Source of the DNA: Gemmatimonadota bacterium
GTDB taxonomy: Bacteria > Gemmatimonadota > Gemmatimonadetes > Longimicrobiales > Gaopeijiaceae
Length of the DNA: 64,000 bases
Reading direction: 5' to 3'
NCBI GenBank assembly: GCA_029262115.1
Contig: JAJCZZ010000053.1
Coordinates: 62,001 to 126,000 of the forward strand
The notes beneath the pieces were generated by a model. It did not search any database, was not told the DNA's origin, and saw only the letters and a list, made by a program, of their open reading frames with translations. Shown here in pieces: positions 31,659-42,100 of the stretch (its first letter is position 1; every line of letters starts with the position of its first letter). A program made the translations under genes and the position numbers.

Positions 31659-34600
31659 ATGAGCGGTACAGAACGGAACGGAAGTGCCCCCGACGGGCCC
31701 CCCGACGACGGTGGGAAGCGGCGGTACAGAGAGTTCGGGCCCACGAGCTTTGCGATCGCCCACAAGACCAGCGTGGTGATGTTGTTGGTGATCATCACCC
31801 TGCTCGGACTCGTCTCCTACCGGGCGACCCCCAAGGAGTCGTTCCCGGAATTGGCCATCCCGATCATCGCGGTCAACACGATCTACCCGGGCGTATCTCC
31901 GGCGGACGTGGAGACGCAGATCACGAGGGTGATCGAGGAAGACCTCAGCACCATCAGCGACATCAAGGAGCTGACGTCGACCTCCGTGGAGGGGTACTCG
32001 AGCATCGTGGCTGAGTTCGCCCCGTCCGTGAACCTCGACGACGCGCTCGCGAAGGTCCGCGAGAAGGTCGATCTCGCGAAGCCGGATCTACCGGATGACG
32101 CCGAAGAGCCGACGATCGTCGAGTTCAACTTCTCCGAGATCCCGATCCTTCAAGTCAACCTGTCCGGTGAGTACGGGCTGGTGCGGCTCAAGGAACTGGG
32201 TGAGGAGCTACAGGACCGCCTCGAGCAGATTCCCGCCGTCCTGCGTGCCGATCTGCGCGGTGGTCTCGAGCGCGAGGTCAGCGTCGACGTCGACCTGACC
32301 AAGATGCAGTACTACGGGCTGTCGCTCACCGACATCGTAGACGCGATCCGGGACGAGAACGTGAACATTCCCGGGGGTTCGATCGATGTGGGGGACTCGA
32401 AGTATCTGCTCCGCGTCGACGGTGAGTTCGATGATCCCGCCGTCATTGGCGACCTGGTCGTGAAGGTGCGGGAGGGGCGGCCCGTGTACGTGCGTGACGT
32501 CGCCTCGGTCGACTTCGGCTTCGCGGAGCGGGACAGCTACGCCCGGATGAACGGCGACGCAGTGGTCACCCTCGACGTCATCAAGCGCGCGGGGGCCAAC
32601 ATCATCGCGACATCGGCGTTGGTGAATGAGGTGCTCGCGGACATGGAGCCGCTTCTTCCGAAGACGACTCGGGTCGAGATCACCTCGGACCAGACCGAGC
32701 AGATCGAGGACATGGTGTCGAGTCTCGAGAACAACATCATCTCTGGGCTCGTCCTCATCGTCGGAGTGCTGCTGTTCTTCCTCGGCCTGGCCAACTCGAT
32801 GTTCGTGGCCGTGTCGATCCCATCTTCGATGTTTCTGTCGTTCATCGTCCTGAAGTTGCTCGGCGTCTCGATGAACATGGTGGTGTTGTTCAGCCTGATT
32901 CTGGCGCTGGGCATGCTGGTCGACAACGCGATCGTCGTGGTGGAAAACATCTACCGGTTCCTCGAAGAGGGCTGGGACAGGGAGACGGCGGCGCGGAAGG
33001 CCACGGGCGAGGTCGCGGTGCCGATCATTGCCGCGACGGCCACGACGCTCGCGGCGTTCGCTCCTTTGCTGTTCTGGCCGGGAGAGGTCGGGGAGTTCAT
33101 GGGCTATATGCCCAAGACGCTGATGGTCACGCTGACCAGTTCGCTGTTCGTGGCGCTCATCATCGTCCCGACGCTGTGCGCCATGTTCATGAAGCTCGAT
33201 GGCACGCCGTCGCGCCCGATGACCCGCGCCATGCGCTGGACCTTGATCGGGGTGGCGGCGCTGACGCTTCTGATCGTCGCGGGCCTGAACCCACTGACTG
33301 CGGTCCTACTGGCGGCGACGGGAGCCATTCTGTGGTTCCTCCACACCCGGCTGTTCGAGCGCGCGGGCCGCGCGTTCCAGGACCGCACGCTGCCGGCCGT
33401 GGTCGATCGTACCTACGAGCCGACCCTCCGGTGGGCGCTGGGTCATCGCGCCGTGCTGCTGGCCATGACGGTGGTCGCGTTCATCGGCACGTTCATGCTG
33501 TTCGGCGCCTTCAATGCCGGAATCGAGTACTTCCCGGAGTCGATGCCGCCGGCTCAGTTGATCGTGGACGTCGAGGCACCGGTCGGGACTCGGGCGGAGG
33601 TCACCGACTCGGTCGTCCGGCGGATCGAGCGGGCGCTTCCGTCCTTCGAGGGCACGCAGGACTGGGAATCGGTGGTGGCTGTAGCGGGGGGTGGCGGGGG
33701 TGGCGGTAACCCGATGGGCGGCGGTCCGGGCGGCCCGGAGGCTGGTCGCGTCACGATCTCCCTGATCGACTTCCAGGACCGTTCGGCGGACGCCTTCACT
33801 ACGCTGGCCACCATGCAGGCGAGCCTCGGCAGCGACATCGCGGGCGCCGAAGTGACGGTCGACAAGCCGGCAGAGGGTCCCGCCCAGGGCGCCCCGGTCA
33901 GCATCGAGATCGTCGGTGAGGATCCCGACGTCCTCGAGGAGCTGTCCGATCGTGTTCTGTCCGTACTGCGCGCCGCGCCGGTCTACGCCCGACTCGTCGG
34001 TCTGGAGAGTGATCTCGACGCGGCACGGCCGGAACTGTCGATCCGTGTGGACCGTGAAAAGGCGGCGCTCTACGACCTCAACACCATGAAGGTCGGGCAG
34101 GCCATCCGTGGCGCGATCAACGGGATCGAGGCCGCGAAGTACCGCACCGGGAACGACGAATACGACATCGTGGTCCGACTGGACCAGCGCTACCGCCAGG
34201 AGCTCGAAGGACTGCGCGACCTGGCCGTCATGGCCGAGGGGGGCATTCAGGTGCCGCTCGTCTCAGTCGCCGATTGGAGCGTCGAGGACGGGTACGGCTC
34301 GATCAAGCGGAAGGACCAGGAGCGGATGGCCACCATCAGCGCCGACGTGGCGGCTGGCATCAACTCGAATGCGGTCCTGGCCGAGGTTCAAGCCACCCTG
34401 GTCGACTTTCAGAATGGTCTGCCGCCCGGCTACAAGATGCAGTACGCAGGGCAGTCGCAGGACCAGGCCGAAGCGCAGGCGTTCCTGGGCGGCGCGTTCC
34501 TCACGGCGTTGCTGTTGATCGGGTTCATTCTGATCAGCCAGTTCAACTCGGTCGTGAAGCCGGTCATCATCCTGACCAGCGTCATCATGTCGACGATGGG

Positions 34601-35195
34601 CGTCCTGCTCGGGTTGATGATCTTCCGGATGCCGTTCGGAATCATCAACACGGGTGTCGGCATCATTTCACTCGCTGGCATCGTGGTGAACAACGCCATC
34701 ATCCTCATCGATTACATCGACGTGTTGCGAGAGCGCGACGGAATGAATCGGCGCGAAGCTCTGATTCAGGGCGGCAAGACGCGTTTCCGCCCGGTGGTCC
34801 TGACGGCGATGACCACGGCGCTCGGGCTGGTCCCGCTGTCGATTGGAATGAACTTCGACTTCTTCGGTCTGTACGGTTCGTTGAACCCCGAGCTGTACTG
34901 GGGTGGAGAGCAGGCGGCGTGGTGGGGGCCGATGGCCGTGGCCATCATCGCGGGCATCCTGTTCGCGACCTTCCTGACGCTCGTGCTGGTGCCGGTCATG
35001 TATTCGCTGGTGGACGATGCGACGGCCTTCTTCAAGAAATACTACGTGGCCCATGACGACGAAGACGAAGAGCGTACGGCCGAGGCGCCGGCGTACGAGG
35101 CGCCGCCGGCACCCGTCCGCGTGCCCGAGCCGGCCGGCGTGTCGCGTTCGAGGAGCGACGGGGGAGGCTTCGGCCTCGCGCCGGAGCGAGGTTGA
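31659..35195 (+). CDS. RND-family efflux permease (HAE1/AcrB type)
   Basis: 1178 residues, longer than AcrB (1049). The TM4 proton-relay motif reads LVDNAIVVVENI near residue 418 (AcrB has LVDDAIVVVEN), and TM10 has VVNNAIILIDYIDV. Porter domains carry IEEDLSTISDIKELTSTS and EYFPESMPPAQLIV. Oddities: two extra hydrophobic segments between the usual TM6 and TM7 (about 525-565), a glycine-rich run (about 676-694) in the periplasmic second half, and a Pro/Glu-rich cytoplasmic tail. Substrate range is unknown, but the class exports drugs, detergents or lipids using the proton gradient. Confidence 0.93.
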   Translation: MSGTERNGSAPDGPPDDGGKRRYREFGPTSFAIAHKTSVVMLLVIITLLGLVSYRATPKESFPELAIPIIAVNTIYPGVSPADVETQITRVIEEDLSTISDIKELTSTSVEGYSSIVAEFAPSVNLDDALAKVREKVDLAKPDLPDDAEEPTIVEFNFSEIPILQVNLSGEYGLVRLKELGEELQDRLEQIPAVLRADLRGGLEREVSVDVDLTKMQYYGLSLTDIVDAIRDENVNIPGGSIDVGDSKYLLRVDGEFDDPAVIGDLVVKVREGRPVYVRDVASVDFGFAERDSYARMNGDAVVTLDVIKRAGANIIATSALVNEVLADMEPLLPKTTRVEITSDQTEQIEDMVSSLENNIISGLVLIVGVLLFFLGLANSMFVAVSIPSSMFLSFIVLKLLGVSMNMVVLFSLILALGMLVDNAIVVVENIYRFLEEGWDRETAARKATGEVAVPIIAATATTLAAFAPLLFWPGEVGEFMGYMPKTLMVTLTSSLFVALIIVPTLCAMFMKLDGTPSRPMTRAMRWTLIGVAALTLLIVAGLNPLTAVLLAATGAILWFLHTRLFERAGRAFQDRTLPAVVDRTYEPTLRWALGHRAVLLAMTVVAFIGTFMLFGAFNAGIEYFPESMPPAQLIVDVEAPVGTRAEVTDSVVRRIERALPSFEGTQDWESVVAVAGGGGGGGNPMGGGPGGPEAGRVTISLIDFQDRSADAFTTLATMQASLGSDIAGAEVTVDKPAEGPAQGAPVSIEIVGEDPDVLEELSDRVLSVLRAAPVYARLVGLESDLDAARPELSIRVDREKAALYDLNTMKVGQAIRGAINGIEAAKYRTGNDEYDIVVRLDQRYRQELEGLRDLAVMAEGGIQVPLVSVADWSVEDGYGSIKRKDQERMATISADVAAGINSNAVLAEVQATLVDFQNGLPPGYKMQYAGQSQDQAEAQAFLGGAFLTALLLIGFILISQFNSVVKPVIILTSVIMSTMGVLLGLMIFRMPFGIINTGVGIISLAGIVVNNAIILIDYIDVLRERDGMNRREALIQGGKTRFRPVVLTAMTTALGLVPLSIGMNFDFFGLYGSLNPELYWGGEQAAWWGPMAVAIIAGILFATFLTLVLVPVMYSLVDDATAFFKKYYVAHDDEDEERTAEAPAYEAPPAPVRVPEPAGVSRSRSDGGGFGLAPERG

Positions 35196-35198
35196 CAT

Positions 35199-36479
35199 TT
35201 GAGGGCTCGTACATCTCTGGCTGGACTGTGCGCCGCGGTGGTTCTCGCCGCGGCGCCGGTCTTCGGCCAGGACGCTGGACGCGGGGGACGTACCGACGCC
35301 CTGCATGTGTTCTTCGAGTGCTCGGGGGGCTTTGGCGGCGGTTGTGATCAGCGTCAGTTCCGCACCGATATCGGCTGGGTCAACTGGATGCGGGACCGGC
35401 AGGACGCCGAGGTCCATGTCATCGTCACCACACAGCGGACCGGCAGTGGGGGTGCCCAGTACAGCTTGGACTTCATCGGGCTGGGGGACCTCGCCGCCTT
35501 CGAGGACCGGCTGTCGTACACGTCGCTCGGAACGGACGTGCGGGACGAGACCGTCAGGGGGGTTGGCCAGATTCTCGCCGTCGGGCTCGCCCGCTTCTCG
35601 CTTCTGGCGGGCGCACCGACCCGTCTCGAGGTTGGAAGCGCCGATGCGGCGGACGCGACGGATCGCCTCGTGACCGCCGAGGAAGTGGACGACCCGTGGG
35701 ACTTCTGGGTCTTCGAGGTCAACGTCGGAGCGGACTTCGAGGGGGAGTCGACCCGAAAGGAGCGGAGCTTCCGGAGTGGACTGGATGCATCACGCATCAC
35801 CGAGGCCTGGAAGCTGGAGTTCGAAGCGGACGCCAGCTTCTCGCGTGACGAAATCCAGCTCTCCGATACGACCATCATCGACAGTCGCCGACGATGGGAT
35901 ACGGATGTGTCCGCCGTCTACGCCCTGGCCAGCCACTGGTCCACGGGAGTCGAAGCGCGCGCGGGCGCCGCGACCGCTACGAACCAGGACTTTTCGGCGT
36001 CCATTCTTCCCACGCTCGAGTTCTCCGTCTGGCCCTATGAGGAGTCTCCGCGGCGGCGCCTGCGTGCTCAATACCGAGTCGGTCTGCGCCACTTCAACTA
36101 CGAAGAGACCACCGTCTTCGGCTTCGATCGTGAGACCCGTGGCGTGCAGGAACTCGAGCTGTCCATCAACCAGCGACAGCCTTGGGGCTCGGTGTTTGCC
36201 AACGTCGAGGGCTCCCACTACCTCCACGATCTCGACAAGTACCGCGTGAGCTCGGGCGGCTTCCTCTCGTTCCGTGTGATCCGAGGGCTGAACCTCCGTG
36301 TGAACGGCCGGGTCTCGTGGATTCGCGACCAACTCTTCCTGGCCGCGGGCGGCGTCAGCGACGAGGAGATCCTCCTTCAGCGCCGCCGGTTGGCGTCGAA
36401 CTTCGACTGGGATCTGGGTGTCGGGCTCTCGTTCCAGTTCGGCTCCATCTACAACAACGTCGTGAATAACCGGTTTTAG
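35199..36479 (+). CDS. Outer-membrane beta-barrel protein co-encoded with the RND pump
   Basis: 426 residues starting at TTG 35199, 3 bp after the permease stop and with GAGG at 35188-35191. The signal peptide (AGLCAAVVLAAAPVFGQ) is followed by a soluble N-terminal region with two Cys (FFECSGGFGGGCDQRQF) and then alternating strands with turns such as TRGVQELELSINQRQPWGSVF. It ends in VVNNRF; a C-terminal Phe is the classic beta-barrel assembly signal. Family not recognised. A fifth operon member alongside a complete tripartite pump could be a surface accessory or cell-envelope sensor. Confidence 0.72.
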   Translation: MRARTSLAGLCAAVVLAAAPVFGQDAGRGGRTDALHVFFECSGGFGGGCDQRQFRTDIGWVNWMRDRQDAEVHVIVTTQRTGSGGAQYSLDFIGLGDLAAFEDRLSYTSLGTDVRDETVRGVGQILAVGLARFSLLAGAPTRLEVGSADAADATDRLVTAEEVDDPWDFWVFEVNVGADFEGESTRKERSFRSGLDASRITEAWKLEFEADASFSRDEIQLSDTTIIDSRRRWDTDVSAVYALASHWSTGVEARAGAATATNQDFSASILPTLEFSVWPYEESPRRRLRAQYRVGLRHFNYEETTVFGFDRETRGVQELELSINQRQPWGSVFANVEGSHYLHDLDKYRVSSGGFLSFRVIRGLNLRVNGRVSWIRDQLFLAAGGVSDEEILLQRRRLASNFDWDLGVGLSFQFGSIYNNVVNNRF

Positions 36480-36648
36480 GGCGACTCCGGATAGGTGAGC
36501 CTCCCTGGTCCAGCGCCGGCGCTTCGGCTGCGCCCGCCGCTGGGGGGGCACGGTCGGCGCACGCCGAGCCAGTCGCCACGCGACGGATCGGTAACGGTCC
36601 CGTCACGCCACTTGCCCCCGGACGACGGTGGTGGAAACGTGGTGGTAC

Positions 36649-37005
36649 ATGTTCAACCATCCGACCGCTCCATTCGGTTCCGCCGACTCGCTTCAAGAGT
36701 TCGTGCGTCGCGCCGGCGAAACGCCGGTTCCGTCCCCGAGTGAGGCCGACCGTCTGGCCGAGGCTGCGGCAAACGGTGACGATTCGGCCGAGCGCCAACT
36801 CGTTGCCGCCTACGCCCGCATCGTCGTGGACGAGGCGATCCGCTACCGAAGCGACGGCGCGAGGATGCGTGATCTCGTCCCGGACGGGGTGGCGGCCCTG
36901 TCTGCCGCCGCGCGAGGCTACACGCCGCGGGCCGACGATACGTTCGCGCGCTTTGCGCGGTCGGCCATCCGCGAAGCCATGGGGCGACGTTTCGCCGCCA
37001 ACTGA
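36649..37005 (+). CDS. Stand-alone sigma-70 region 1.2/2-like protein without regions 3-4
   Basis: 118 residues from ATG 36649; GTG 36628 would add seven. Residues about 14-45 (SLQEFVRRAGETPVPSPSE, then RLAEAAANGDD) match sigma region 1.2, and about 46-115 match region 2: LVAAYARIVVDEAIRY, RMRDLVPDGVAALSAAA, FARFARSAIREAMGRRF. The core-binding 2.2 segment is kept in outline, but the aromatic residues of 2.3 that melt the -10 element (the WW of RpoD) are replaced by SA. The stop comes directly after region 2 and no other frame continues with regions 3 or 4. Could be a fragment, an RNA-polymerase decoy or half of a split sigma factor. Confidence 0.62.
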   Translation: MFNHPTAPFGSADSLQEFVRRAGETPVPSPSEADRLAEAAANGDDSAERQLVAAYARIVVDEAIRYRSDGARMRDLVPDGVAALSAAARGYTPRADDTFARFARSAIREAMGRRFAAN

Positions 37006-37044
37006 TCCGGGTGGGTCCGCCGTTCCGATAGCGGGGCTGACTCG

Positions 37045-37821
37045 GTGGTGACGACGATCCTCGATCCCGGCCTGAGCGGCCTGGCCACGGTCGTCGGGGC
37101 CATGGTGTTCCTCTGGATCGTCAGCGTCGTTCGTCGAGATGCGTCGATCGTGGACCCGTTCTGGGCGCCTGGATTCGCTCTGGTCTGCGGGGTCTACGTC
37201 GTGCGACTCGGAGGTACGAACCGGGGGCTGTTGGTGTTGACCATCGTGGTGTTGTGGGCTCTCCGACTCGGCGCTCACCTCTGGTCCCGTAACCGACGCG
37301 AGGGTGAGGACCCCCGGTATGCCGCTTGGCGCGAGGAGCATGGCGCGCGGTTCTGGTGGGTCAGCCTCTTCACGGTCTTCCTCCTCCAGGCCCTGATCCT
37401 CTGGGTCGTTTCTGCCCCCCTCCTCGGTGCCGCGGCGGGACGGAGTCCCCTCGGCGTGCTCGACGGGATCGGCGCCGCCGTCGCGGCGTTCGGCCTCCTC
37501 TTCGAGTCCGTGGCGGACCATCAGCTCCGCGAGTTTCGGGCACGGCCCGACACGTCCGGGATCGTCTTGGACGAAGGCCTGTGGCGGTACTCCCGACACC
37601 CGAACTACTTCGGGAATGCGGTGCTCTGGTGGGGACTCTGGCTCATCGCGGTGGCGGCGGGTGCCACGTGGACGGTTGTGGGTCCTCTCCTGATGACGTT
37701 CCTTCTCCTGCGCGTATCGGGGGTCTCGCTCCTCGAACGGCGTTTGCGCGCCCACCGGCCCGGGTACGAAGACTATGTGCGCCGCACGTCGGCGTTCGTC
37801 CCCCTTCCGCCGCGTGCCTGA
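37045..37821 (+). CDS. DUF1295 membrane protein (steroid 5-alpha-reductase-like)
   Basis: 258 residues from GTG 37045 (a second GTG follows at 37048), with about six or seven helices. SIVDPFWAPGF and SRNRREGEDPRYAAWR in the first half, and GLWRYSRHPNYFGNAVLWWG plus HRPGYEDYVRRTSAFVP in the second, match PF06966. The RHPNYFG block is the cofactor/active-site segment shared with ICMT and sterol reductases, so an NADPH-dependent reductase or methyltransferase activity on a lipid is plausible but unproven. Confidence 0.87.
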   Translation: MVTTILDPGLSGLATVVGAMVFLWIVSVVRRDASIVDPFWAPGFALVCGVYVVRLGGTNRGLLVLTIVVLWALRLGAHLWSRNRREGEDPRYAAWREEHGARFWWVSLFTVFLLQALILWVVSAPLLGAAAGRSPLGVLDGIGAAVAAFGLLFESVADHQLREFRARPDTSGIVLDEGLWRYSRHPNYFGNAVLWWGLWLIAVAAGATWTVVGPLLMTFLLLRVSGVSLLERRLRAHRPGYEDYVRRTSAFVPLPPRA

Positions 37822-37843
37822 CGTCCACCTCCTACGTCGGCCC

Positions 37844-38350
37844 ATGGACACAGCCCCCAGGCCGGAGCACGATCCCGCGATTGGCGCGCTCGGTCAGACT
37901 ATCGGTCCAGCCATCATGAAGAGCATGGTGCCCCGTCTCGGGCGTGCGCTGGTTCCTATCGTCATCGCCTGGATCGTGGGCTGGCTGCAGATCGCTCGAG
38001 GCGCACCGGGGTCCGCGGCAGTCCTGCTGTTTGGCGCGCCGATCGCGATCGGGCTGCTTCTCGTGCTTAGCACGTCCATCGTCCGCAACGCGTTCGGACG
38101 GCCCCTTCGGCCCTGGATGGCCGTGGCGCCGCTCGGTGGCGTCGTGCCGATCGTCTTCGGCTTGTACGTTCTCGGGTGGATGGGTCTACGGGAGACGGCG
38201 GCCGGGGGCTCAGGCGTCGAGATCGGGATCGGTCTCGCGATGGTCGTACTGGGTGGGTGGATTCTGCGGGCGGTGATGAATGTGATCGAGTTGCAACAGT
38301 TGGCGCGGGTGATGGTGGCCCCTACGAGCGCCGAGCGGGGAGAGCGATGA
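37844..38350 (+). CDS. Four-helix integral membrane protein, unknown
   Basis: 168 residues from ATG 37844, 22 bp after the DUF1295 gene. Hydrophobic segments: about 32-46 (LVPIVIAWIVGWL), 52-74, 88-112 and 120-140. A short basic patch (FGRPLRPW) separates helices 2 and 3, and the end is cytoplasmic-looking (ELQQLARVMVAPTSAERGER). No family recognised. Its stop overlaps the ATG of the next small gene, so the two products are probably made together. Confidence 0.6.
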   Translation: MDTAPRPEHDPAIGALGQTIGPAIMKSMVPRLGRALVPIVIAWIVGWLQIARGAPGSAAVLLFGAPIAIGLLLVLSTSIVRNAFGRPLRPWMAVAPLGGVVPIVFGLYVLGWMGLRETAAGGSGVEIGIGLAMVVLGGWILRAVMNVIELQQLARVMVAPTSAERGER

Positions 38351-38556
38351 GCCGCGGTCGTCGGGTGGCCTTCACGGTGGTGGGGTACGCCGTCCTCTCG
38401 GTGGCTCTCATTCCGGTGTTTCGGGGCGTGCGTAGCCTGCTTCTTCTCCCGCCGCTCTTCATGACCCTCGCCCTCGGCCTCCTGGCCCTGGGGCTCCCGG
38501 TCGCTCTACTGGTCGCCTGGCGGTACCCGGACGTCGGATCGCCGCCCGATGAGTGA
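38347..38556 (+). CDS. Small two-helix membrane protein
   Basis: 69 residues starting at ATG 38347 (ATGA overlap with the preceding gene). Two hydrophobic stretches, AFTVVGYAVLSVALIPVF and a longer leucine-rich LLLLPPLFMTLALGLLALG to VALLVAW, linked by a short RGVRS turn. No family recognised; likely a partner of the upstream membrane protein. Confidence 0.55.
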   Translation: MSRGRRVAFTVVGYAVLSVALIPVFRGVRSLLLLPPLFMTLALGLLALGLPVALLVAWRYPDVGSPPDE

Positions 38557-38581
38557 GAGGGCCGCTCCGCTCACCGACTCC

Positions 38582-39151
38582 CTACGAGACACATCCGTCG
38601 GCGGGTTGGCGGGAGGGGCCGTCCGCGTTTCCGAAGACCATGACCCAGTAGAACCCGTAGGCGCTCCCCTCCCGATCGGCTCGCGCGATCCCGACATGGC
38701 GCGCCCGTTCGCTGCGGATGTTACGGAGATGGGGCGGCGACTCCTCCCATCCCTCGAAGGTCGCCCTGGCGGAGGACCGACCGGCCGCCGTGTTCTCGGC
38801 CACGAACACCCACGGGTACGCCGCAGCCGCCGCCCGATCCGCGGGAAGCGAAGCATCGGAGCCCTCGTGACCCGAGAAGCCGCCACGGGCCATGTCGTTC
38901 ACGTGCCGCCGCGCGGCTTCTTGCAGACGGGTATCGACCTCGAGCGCGGGAAGCGGTGCGTCTCGACGCGCTTCGTTCACGAGCTCCAACATCTCCCGGA
39001 TGGGCGTGTCTCGGCACTCGCTCGAAGCCGGTCTCGCGCCTTTTGCGGCTGGGGGAGCGACCGGACCACACGCGGCCAGGACCACGATACCGACGGCGGG
39101 AAGTGCGATGCGCGACCGACCCCGGCACCGTCGCGGTCGGGCTGAGCCCAT
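38582..39151 (-). CDS. CAP/SCP-domain lipoprotein
   Basis: About 189 residues. From ATG 39151 the product starts MGSARPRRCRGRSR, then a hydrophobic core and the lipobox VVLAAC. The CAP domain (about 50-185) shows MLELVNEARR, LQEAARRHVNDMA with the first His, FSGHEGSD, FVAENTAAG and a C-terminal YWVMVFG strand; these are the CAP1-CAP4 features. Bacterial CAP proteins such as YkwD are secreted, Ca2+- or lipid-binding modules of unclear activity. Its start codon shares two bases with the start of the divergent gene (CCATGG), leaving no room for a normal shared promoter unless one of the longer starts is used. Confidence 0.83.
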   Translation of the reverse strand: MGSARPRRCRGRSRIALPAVGIVVLAACGPVAPPAAKGARPASSECRDTPIREMLELVNEARRDAPLPALEVDTRLQEAARRHVNDMARGGFSGHEGSDASLPADRAAAAAYPWVFVAENTAAGRSSARATFEGWEESPPHLRNIRSERARHVGIARADREGSAYGFYWVMVFGNADGPSRQPADGCVS

Positions 39152-42100
39152 GGGGTCGATCCTCCTGTATGCGGCCTTCGTTCTGTCTGGCATGGCCGGA
39201 CTCGTCTACGAGGTGGTGTGGGCGCGGTACCTGGGTCTGCTCGTGGGAAGCAGTGCCCTCTCCCAGGTTCTGGTGCTGGTTGTCTACCTGGGCGGCATGG
39301 GCCTGGGTTCCCTCCTGGTCGCACGCCGCTCCCGCGAGATCGGTCGGCCTCTGGTGGCGTACGCGACGCTCGAGTTCGCGTCCGGCCTCTTGGGGCTGGT
39401 CTTCCACACGCTCTTTGTCGTCGTCACCGATCTGACCTACGACGGGCTCTTCGGGCTCGATTGGCTGGGGCCGTCCGGCGGCGCCGCCCTGAGGTGGGGT
39501 GTCGCGTCGCTCCTCGTTCTCCCCCACGCCTTGTTGTTGGGGGCAACGTTTCCGCTGATGGTAGCGGGCGTCATCCGAATGCAACGGGCCCGACCCGGGG
39601 AGGGGGTGGCAACCGTATATCTCGCGAACGCGATCGGTGGGGCGGCGGGCGTTCTGCTCGCCGGCTTCGTTCTCATCGAGTGGGTAGGACTTCCCGGAAC
39701 CGCTCGGGCCGCCGGACTGATCAACCTGTTGGTCTTCCTCCTCGTCATGGTCGCCCCCGGCGCCCGGTCGCCCGCGGCACCGTGGAGCGGACCGCGCTCC
39801 CGGTCGTCGGAACGGGGGACCAGCGGCACGCCGGTCGGTCGAGCCATGCCGAAGTTGATGCTGTTCGTCGCGTTCGCCTCGGCGGCGGCGTCCTTTGGCT
39901 ACGAGATCGCGTGGGTGCGCATGCTCGCCCTGCTCATGGGCGCGGCGACGCACGCGTTCGAAATCATGCTCTCGGCGTTCGTGCTGGGGCTCGGCCTGGG
40001 CGCGTGGTTCGTGCGCGGCATCCTCGATCGAACGGACTCGCCCACGCGGCTGCTCGGCGGAATTCAGTGGATGATGGCGGTGGCGGCGCTCGCCACCGTG
40101 CCGATCTACATTCTCTCGTTCGAGGCGATGGCGGGGCTGGTACCGAGCGCGACCGCCTCGGATGGGGGCTATCTATACCTGAACGCGGGCCGGTACGCCC
40201 TTTCCCTCATCGTCATGCTGCCCGCGACGTTTCTAGCGGGTATGGCGCTCCCCGCCATCACAAGCGCGCTCCTCCACTCGGGATCTTCGGAGCGCGCCAT
40301 CGGCCACGTCTATGCCTGGAACACGTTCGGGTCGGTGACGGGGGCTGCCCTGTCCGGCCTGGTCCTGCTGCCGGTCCTGGGTGCAAAGGGACTCCTCGTC
40401 GGGGCGGCGGGCATCGACATGGCCCTCGGAATTGTGCTCTTGAGCGTAGCCGCGGGACGAGACGGCGTGGCGCGGGTGGCCCCCGTCCTGGCCGGCATCG
40501 TCGGACTGTTCGGTATGCTCGTCATCGGCGTGGGTGTCCCGCTGGACCGTGTCGTGCTCACCGGTGGGGTCTTCCGGTACGGAGCGGTGCCGGCCCCCGG
40601 GACGCGGGAGATCGTCTACTATCGCGACGCTCCTACCGCCACGGTTGCGGTCCACCGTATTCTCGACGGCGGCCTTCTGGTCCTGACGACGAACGGGAAG
40701 CCGGACGCGTCCCTCGAGCCGAGGTGGCTGCTCGACCGGCGCGACACGCTGTCCGAAGTGCCGGTTCCCGCGCTGAGCGACGCCGGGACCCAGCTCTTCG
40801 CGCCCCTCGTTGGTCTGGCCCATCGCCCGGACGCCGCCCGAGTCCTGAACATCGGCCATGGTTCGGGCATGTCGGCGGCGGCCTTGCTCGCCAGCACGAA
40901 CATCGAGGAGTTGACGACCGTGGAGATTGAGCGGGCGGTGGTCGAGGCGTCTCGCTCGTTTTTCCCTGCCAATGCCGCGGCGTTTTCGGATGCACGGGCG
41001 CGTTGGGTGTTCGAGGACGCCAAGTCGTACCTCGCGCGAACACGTGGTCCGCTCGACCTCTTGTTCTCCGAGCCATCCAATCCCTGGGTGACCGGCGCGT
41101 CGAGCCTGTTCACGAAGGAGTTCTACCAGCGAGCTCGTGGAAGCCTCCGCCAGGGCGGGATCATTGTCCAGTGGTTGCAGCTCTACGAACTGGACGATCG
41201 CCTTTTCCTGACCGTGCTCTCCGCCTTGTCGCGAGAGTTTCCCTGGTACCGCGGGTATCTCGTGGGTGACGGCGATATCGTGGTCGTCGCCTCGGCTGAC
41301 GGTCCGGTGCCGGACCCCGACTGGTCGGTGTTCCGCCTTCCAGCGATCGAGGCCGCGGTCTTCGTCGACGTACCCCCCTTCCATCCGCAACACGGTCGCG
41401 CGCTCGAACTGTTCGATCAGACGACGATGGAGCCGCTCGTGTCGGCCGCGGCGCCCAACTCGGACTTCCATCCGATTCTCGATCTCGGCGCCGAGCGGGC
41501 TCGATTCGCCAGGACGGGCGCGGACGGCTTCGCGTCTCTAGGCACGGCTCGAGTCGACCTGTGGAGGACCCGAGCCGGAATTCGGCGGGAGCGGCCCGAC
41601 CGATATCACATCCCGCCGGCCCGTGGGCTGGCGCCGCTCGTGCGACAGGAGCGTGCCGCCTGGCTCGCGGCACGGAGCGCCGGAGCCGGGGGCGTTGGGG
41701 CCCGGAGCACCGGCGCCGCGGGCGACACGGTGCCGTCCGCCTTTCCGGAGTGGTCGCAGGTGGCCGACGAGGTCGACGCGTTCCTGCGTACCCTCGACTC
41801 GGAGGGACCGCCGGAGGACTGGAGGGAGTGGGCGCGGACCTTCGAGACGGTCGAGGCCTACCTACACGCCGGAACCGCGGGTTGGGCCGACTCGACGTTC
41901 TATCAGCGGGTACGCTCGTATCTTGCGCGGACGAGCACCCCGGACCTCGCGGCCGCTGTCGTTGACTTCATGGAGGGTGTAGCCGTCTGGGATTTCGTCG
42001 TCGTGGCCGGGGCGGCGGACCGTCTTCTCGCTCCGGCGGACTCGGAGGAGGTCTGGCTCTCTGCGGGCACCCTGCTCGATGGGTCGGCGCTCGCCTACCT

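Follow-up and report, generated by a model that had tools for sequence, protein, structure and literature searches.

The window analysed here (the whole stretch of DNA, 64,000 nucleotides in length) carries on its + strand a short sigma-like gene at positions 36649..37005, which begins with an ATG at 36649 and ends with a TGA at 37003-37005, the stop being included in the coordinates. Its product is a protein of 118 amino acids that resembles a stand-alone sigma region 1.2-2.3 with a part of region 2.4. An alternative GTG start at position 36628 would give a protein of 125 residues. Upstream, on the same strand, lies the element GTAAC-N15-CTTGC-N17-GGAAACGT (36591..36640), which stands 8 bases before the ATG and has the appearance of a promoter and ribosome site. 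The gene of a DUF1295 membrane protein follows directly downstream (37045..37821, + strand), and this order is kept in G001, the sole other genome of the genus that was compared.

The wider neighbourhood contains an AcrB-type pump gene (31659-35195) and then, at 35199-36479 on the + strand, a gene with a TTG start coding for a 426-residue protein without Pfam match; in G001, the place of this last gene is occupied by a DinB-like gene. After the DUF1295 gene is found a membrane-like protein without Pfam match (37841-38350, + strand). It is fast-evolving, with a G001 counterpart that is 34.5% identical and a pN/pS of 0.90. A CAP-domain (cysteine-rich secretory protein) gene is located at 38582-39193 on the - strand (Pfam E-value 5e-20).

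Sigma-factor match and predicted fold

An initial annotation, made from the DNA alone, had aligned the protein with sigma factors, and this match is significant, being well above chance. The NCBIfam RpoS model recognizes residues 11-113 with an E-value of 1.1e-9 and a score of 38.3 bits (curated cut-off 378.7), and the RpoS chains of the PDB match residues 12-113 with an E-value of 3.9e-7. The top scorers are the models of group 1-3 sigma factors, which include region 1.2. The initial annotation had named two Pfam families for comparison. Sigma70_r2 is matched by the window protein with an E-value of 1.8e-4 and 21.6 bits, below the cut-off of 24 bits, the orthologue in G001 being above this cut-off (31.5 bits) and the relative in a third genome, G138, below it (12.7 bits). 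Sigma70_r1_2 matches only the G001 and G138 proteins, in both cases below its cut-off. Besides the sigma part, no further Pfam domain was matched in the 118-residue protein, and no response-regulator part.

The region 1.2-like part comprises residues 12 to 42 approximately (36682..36774, + strand), with helices 12-24 and 30-41 in the structure model, and the Sigma70_r2-like part comprises residues 51-115 (36799..36993, + strand). The alignment thus starts in region 1.2, as had been claimed, but it does not end after region 2.2: it runs through region 2.3 and ends inside region 2.4. A structure model built from a two-row alignment, in which the window protein was paired with a sigma row of the locus L035, has a mean pLDDT of 87.9; the same protein modelled without any alignment gives a weak model (pLDDT 66.8). 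The former is predicted to have the helical fold of region 1.2-2 and superposes on the RpoS region 1.2-2 structure 5h6x_B over 96 residues (Z 15.2, rmsd 1.7). In the comparison with the Escherichia coli sigma70 (6ca0_F), residue 118 of the model is aligned with residue 446, a position that we take to lie inside region 2.4.

The absence of regions 3 and 4 from all frames, also claimed by the initial annotation, was confirmed. Regions 2.4-4 were searched by tblastn, using three sigma factors of the window's own genome as queries, in the interval 33649-40005 of the window and in the corresponding regions of G001 and G138, and the best E-value was 0.42, against 2e-111 for the positive control. There is moreover no room for regions 3-4, since the DUF1295 gene starts 39 bases downstream in the window's own genome (G000) and 20 bases downstream in G001. 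Three ordinary full-length sigma hits are also present in G000.

Residues lost and kept in the short proteins

The orthologue in G001 is a protein of 119 residues, encoded at the same place before DUF1295, with an identity of 42% over residues 8-111 (39% overall), and it also ends inside region 2.4. G138, which represents another genus of the family, encodes a relative of 110 residues at an unrelated locus; this short sigma-like gene (L096:8611-9127) is localized between phoU of the pst operon and cstA. The end point is identical in the three proteins. All three genomes are drafts, with a completeness of 95.66% (G000), 89% (G001) and 80% (G138).

These proteins were aligned with 74 full-length rows, among which are L031, cut by a contig end, and one protein present twice with different ends (L010 and L083). 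Three rows with misaligned tails were then dropped, leaving 71 for the comparison of conserved positions; they seemed to have no W433/W434, an alignment artefact as these rows read YAVWWIRQAI. Thirty-five positions are conserved in at least 95% of the 71 rows, of which 18 are kept in G001, 16 in G000 and 16 in G138. The three short proteins keep 12 of the 35 in common (G43, L51, R57, D75, L76, G80, L84, A87, A88, F99, A103 and R108). The positions of this set that none of them retains include N383, E407, N409, W433, W434 and Q437. Conversely, V19, A22, D61, E62, I64 and R104 occur in all three short proteins and in none of the 71 full-length rows. Three of these residues belong to the motif DEAIR (residues 61-65; 36829..36843, + strand), common to the three proteins, which stands in place of the usual S-V-A-K-(K/R) of region 2.1.

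In sigma factors, the capture and melting of the -10 element involve the residues N383, Y430, W433, W434 and Q437 (numbering of sigma70). The ECF sigma factors and some group 3 sigma factors are also devoid of the two tryptophans, and because of this the loss of W433/W434 alone is not decisive. N383, W433, W434 and Q437 are lost in the three short proteins. The sequence S-A-I-R-E of the window protein (residues 105-109; 36961..36975, + strand) corresponds to the positions 433-437, and the two tryptophans are replaced by S/A in this protein, Q/A in G001 and S/S in G138, so that the replacement of the melting aromatics had been read correctly in the initial annotation. Of the three proteins, only that of G001 conserves Y430; the window protein has F at this position and the G138 protein has H.

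The residues 403, 406, 407 and 409 of the E. coli sigma70 contact the beta' coiled-coil, as described in PMC8321222. The positions 406-409 correspond to P-D-G-V in the window protein (residues 78-81; 36880..36891, + strand), where Q406, E407 and N409 are replaced, and these three residues are lost in the other two short proteins as well. Q406 gives way to S, P or R in the short proteins, whereas 71 of the 74 full-length rows have Q or N; E407 is shared by 73 of these rows and N409 by all 74, and both are replaced in all the short proteins. D403 is the sole beta' contact kept in the three, along with L404, G408 and L412 of region 2.2. As far as can be judged from the sequences, both functions of the sigma-2 domain, the gripping of polymerase and the melting of DNA, look damaged, and the residues of the frame stay.

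This loss of the polymerase grip beside that of the melting residues is the main point against a protein that binds core but cannot open promoters, one of the functions put forward in the initial annotation. The second half of that proposal stands, since with the melting residues gone the protein is unlikely to open promoters; the first half is weakened by the replacement of 406, 407 and 409 in all three proteins. According to the same source, the mutation of region 2.2 contacts weakens core binding and does not abolish it (PMC8321222), and some core binding could remain because D403 persists together with most of the hydrophobic frame of this region. A competitor that holds the beta' clamp without opening promoters, at the expense of housekeeping or alternative sigma factors, nevertheless seems unlikely to us. 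Sigma factors bind core mainly through sigma-2, the fold of which is predicted intact here, and this together with D403, L404, G408 and L412 speaks for such a role, but a competitor should keep Q406, E407 and N409, and these are replaced, mostly by different residues in each protein.

Distribution, upstream element and selection

Scans of 121 genomes of the family, 154 of the order, 394 of the class and 395 of the phylum gave three short members among the matches listed; the genome samples of these ranks overlap and some candidates per genome were scored, so that weaker members could be missed. Two other short frames from the family scan were rejected, G099:C44 being an ordinary sigma factor cut by a contig end and G106:C105 beginning, from its coordinates, at base 3 of its contig. 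An origin from a phage or a plasmid was considered and not retained. P0001 has matches in 7 phage and 22 plasmid records, with 26-33% identity among the matches listed, and those with an annotation bear the name of sigma factors. No relative was found in viral_contigs by a scan with the profile A4.

DUF1295 is present in 19 of 59 genomes, including that of the window. The short gene was found only in those of G000 and G001 among the 21 DUF1295 loci fetched, and an ORF scan of eight wider DUF1295 loci (L059-L066) detected no sigma gene at an E-value of 1e-5. An orthologue with regions 3-4 at the same position, the sign by which the initial annotation would have recognized a truncated gene, was therefore absent: the only orthologue there is equally short, and no full-length sigma factor occurs at the 21 loci or at L059-L066. 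A recent truncation was rejected on these grounds. Concerning the locus of G138, neither phoU nor a short gene was found within the fetched flanks of six other CstA loci. In G137 and G139, congeners of G138 with a close CstA, the fetched flanks contain neither phoU nor a short gene.

In both members of the genus the short gene immediately precedes DUF1295, an arrangement that would suit a sigma-2 fold recruited to a role unrelated to sigma factors, such as that of a DNA-binding or membrane-partner subunit in a DUF1295 operon. The gene of the third member is flanked by phoU and cstA, away from DUF1295, and we consider such a reuse rather improbable.

The upstream element is found, in the form GTAAC-N15/16-CTTGC-N17/18-GGAA(A)CGT, in the noncoding DNA that precedes each of the three short genes, with two unrelated loci represented (36591-36640 in the window, L006:1421-1470 and L096:8635-8685). 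The distances to the ATG are 8, 6 and 5 bases, respectively, and as they put the blocks in different reading frames, a coding conservation does not account for them. In a run-based test on the upstream DNA of G000 and G001, none of 1500 shuffled pairs reached the same sum of shared runs. This test was adopted with the blocks already in view, and G138 therefore offers a more independent control: the pattern was recovered in none of 20000 shuffles of its upstream DNA, with a pattern that tolerated the spacings and the single absent A of G138. When the upstream DNA of G000 and G001 was compared by whole-overlap or by gapped alignment, the result was not significant (the observed value was reached by 3554 of 5000 and 607 of 2000 shuffles, respectively). 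The first two blocks occur once in the 64-kb window, for 0.07 expected.

A consensus scan of the DNA upstream of the short gene detected no sigma-70-type promoter. A cognate ECF sigma factor for the element was sought in 40 stretches close to where other sigma-like genes start (33 in G000 and 7 in G001, a part of those of the two genomes), and no match with fewer than two mismatches was found. GTAAC-N-CTTGC at the DUF1295 locus of G031 is inside an ORF and was taken as chance, as were 18 stretches of viral_contigs from a scan with the upstream pattern, for which the profile A4 gave no relative. The element GTAAC-CTTGC-GGAA(A)CGT may represent a promoter plus a ribosome site.

In a tree of 77 rows (the three short proteins and 74 full-length-type ORFs from the fetched loci), the short proteins form one clade supported by values of 100/99, with very long branches over 110 columns, the end branches exceeding 5 changes per column. 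Between G000 and G001, the identities at the codon positions 1, 2 and 3 are 0.53, 0.59 and 0.36, values reached by 0/2000, 0/2000 and 1009/2000 shuffled pairings, respectively. The codon positions 1 and 2 are constrained and position 3 is saturated. The raw pN/pS is 0.63 for the short gene and 0.51 for DUF1295, and 0.90 for the short gene in the pair G001-G138, a value that is weak by itself; because silent sites are saturated, a dN/dS value is not trustworthy.

From the same ends, the single clade, the shared and lost residues, the upstream element and the codon constraint, we conclude that the three short proteins constitute a small, selected, sigma-derived family that is unlikely to work as a sigma factor. 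Because the gene and its control region are conserved in two species that are related to each other, and again in a third at a locus unrelated to theirs, we regard the short protein as a probable regulator in working order and not as the product of a broken gene. The decaying remnant of a sigma factor, by chance open in three genomes, that the initial annotation had also considered would fit the scores of the window and G138 copies below the Pfam cut-off, the fast evolution and the patchy distribution. It is made improbable by the codon-position constraint, by the new residues held in common, by the same end in three genomes and by an upstream element kept at two unrelated loci.

Partner search, possible function and known systems

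A separate region-4 partner was sought in G000 and in the fragmented G001, both genomes being incomplete. Twenty of the 22 region-4 hits without region 2 were read, and no stand-alone sigma region 4 was found among them: by eye, they are LuxR-type, XRE-type, ECF-type with a weak region 2 or other HTH proteins. None of the unpaired hits adjoins the short sigma-like gene. Although RsoA offers the precedent of a natural sigma-2-only protein that needs SigO (PMC8103513 and PMC10141391), half of a split sigma factor, as the initial annotation had suggested, is very unlikely here, with no suitable region-4 protein among the hits read and with the loss of the melting and -10 residues that a working half should keep.

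The comparisons and the structure model trace the gene product back to a group 1-3 sigma factor, as a sigma-2-like protein that stands alone, has a predicted sigma-2 fold and is under selection. The residues with which a sigma factor grips RNA polymerase are lost from it, as are those that capture and melt the -10 element. It has acquired conserved residues of its own, D61, E62 and I64 in helix 2.1 and R104, which may form a binding face. The explanation that we tentatively prefer is a mimic of sigma-2 that would bind a sigma-2 partner protein. Transcription of the short gene would start at the conserved promoter-like element before it and, in this genus, would probably extend into the DUF1295 gene. 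The target of the short protein would be a protein whose usual ligand is domain 2 of one of the cell's group 1-3 sigma factors, with anti-sigma factors and sigma-2-binding co-activators as the candidate classes. By occupying this target, the short protein would free or withhold the sigma factor concerned, in the manner of PhyR and NepR. To our knowledge, no sigma-2-binding regulators have been described in this bacterial group. The family behind the mimic reading counts three members, and the nature of PhyR, an ECF-like mimic fused to a receiver where the short protein is a sigma-2 part only, speaks against this reading.

In its general form, the proposal is that a group 1-3 sigma factor was cut to region 1.2-2, disarmed towards polymerase as well as DNA, and has been retained, together with a promoter element of its own, as a free-standing decoy controlling a sigma-2-binding regulator, which would be a mimicry outside the ECF class and without a response-regulator part. 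We regard this form as possible but doubtful. If true, a conserved free-standing sigma-2 protein devoid of the polymerase grip and of the melting residues would extend sigma mimicry beyond the alphaproteobacterial stress response, and the short protein could serve as bait for sigma-2-binding regulators.

A search of the literature found no comparable protein; subscription journals were mostly outside its coverage, and this result is not a proof of novelty. Three known systems are the closest. The short protein is similar to RpoS, RpoD and RpoH in regions 1.2 to 2.3, by sequence and by predicted fold, and differs from them by the lack of regions 3-4 and of N383, Q406, E407, N409, W433, W434 and Q437. 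RsoA (listed at 9.00 kDa in PMC10141391) is likewise a small protein in its own right that consists of a sigma-2 domain, as described in PMC8103513. However, RsoA acts together with SigO, which is encoded in its operon, and no equivalent of SigO was found here; the short protein also has a region 1.2, and its initiation contacts are replaced. Finally, the sigma-like domain of PhyR, which titrates the anti-sigma factor NepR in the general stress response of alphaproteobacteria, resembles the short protein in that its core- and promoter-binding parts are degenerate (PMC8103513). The PhyR domain is ECF-like and included in a response regulator, whereas the protein described here consists of region 1.2-2 of a group 1-3 sigma factor alone.
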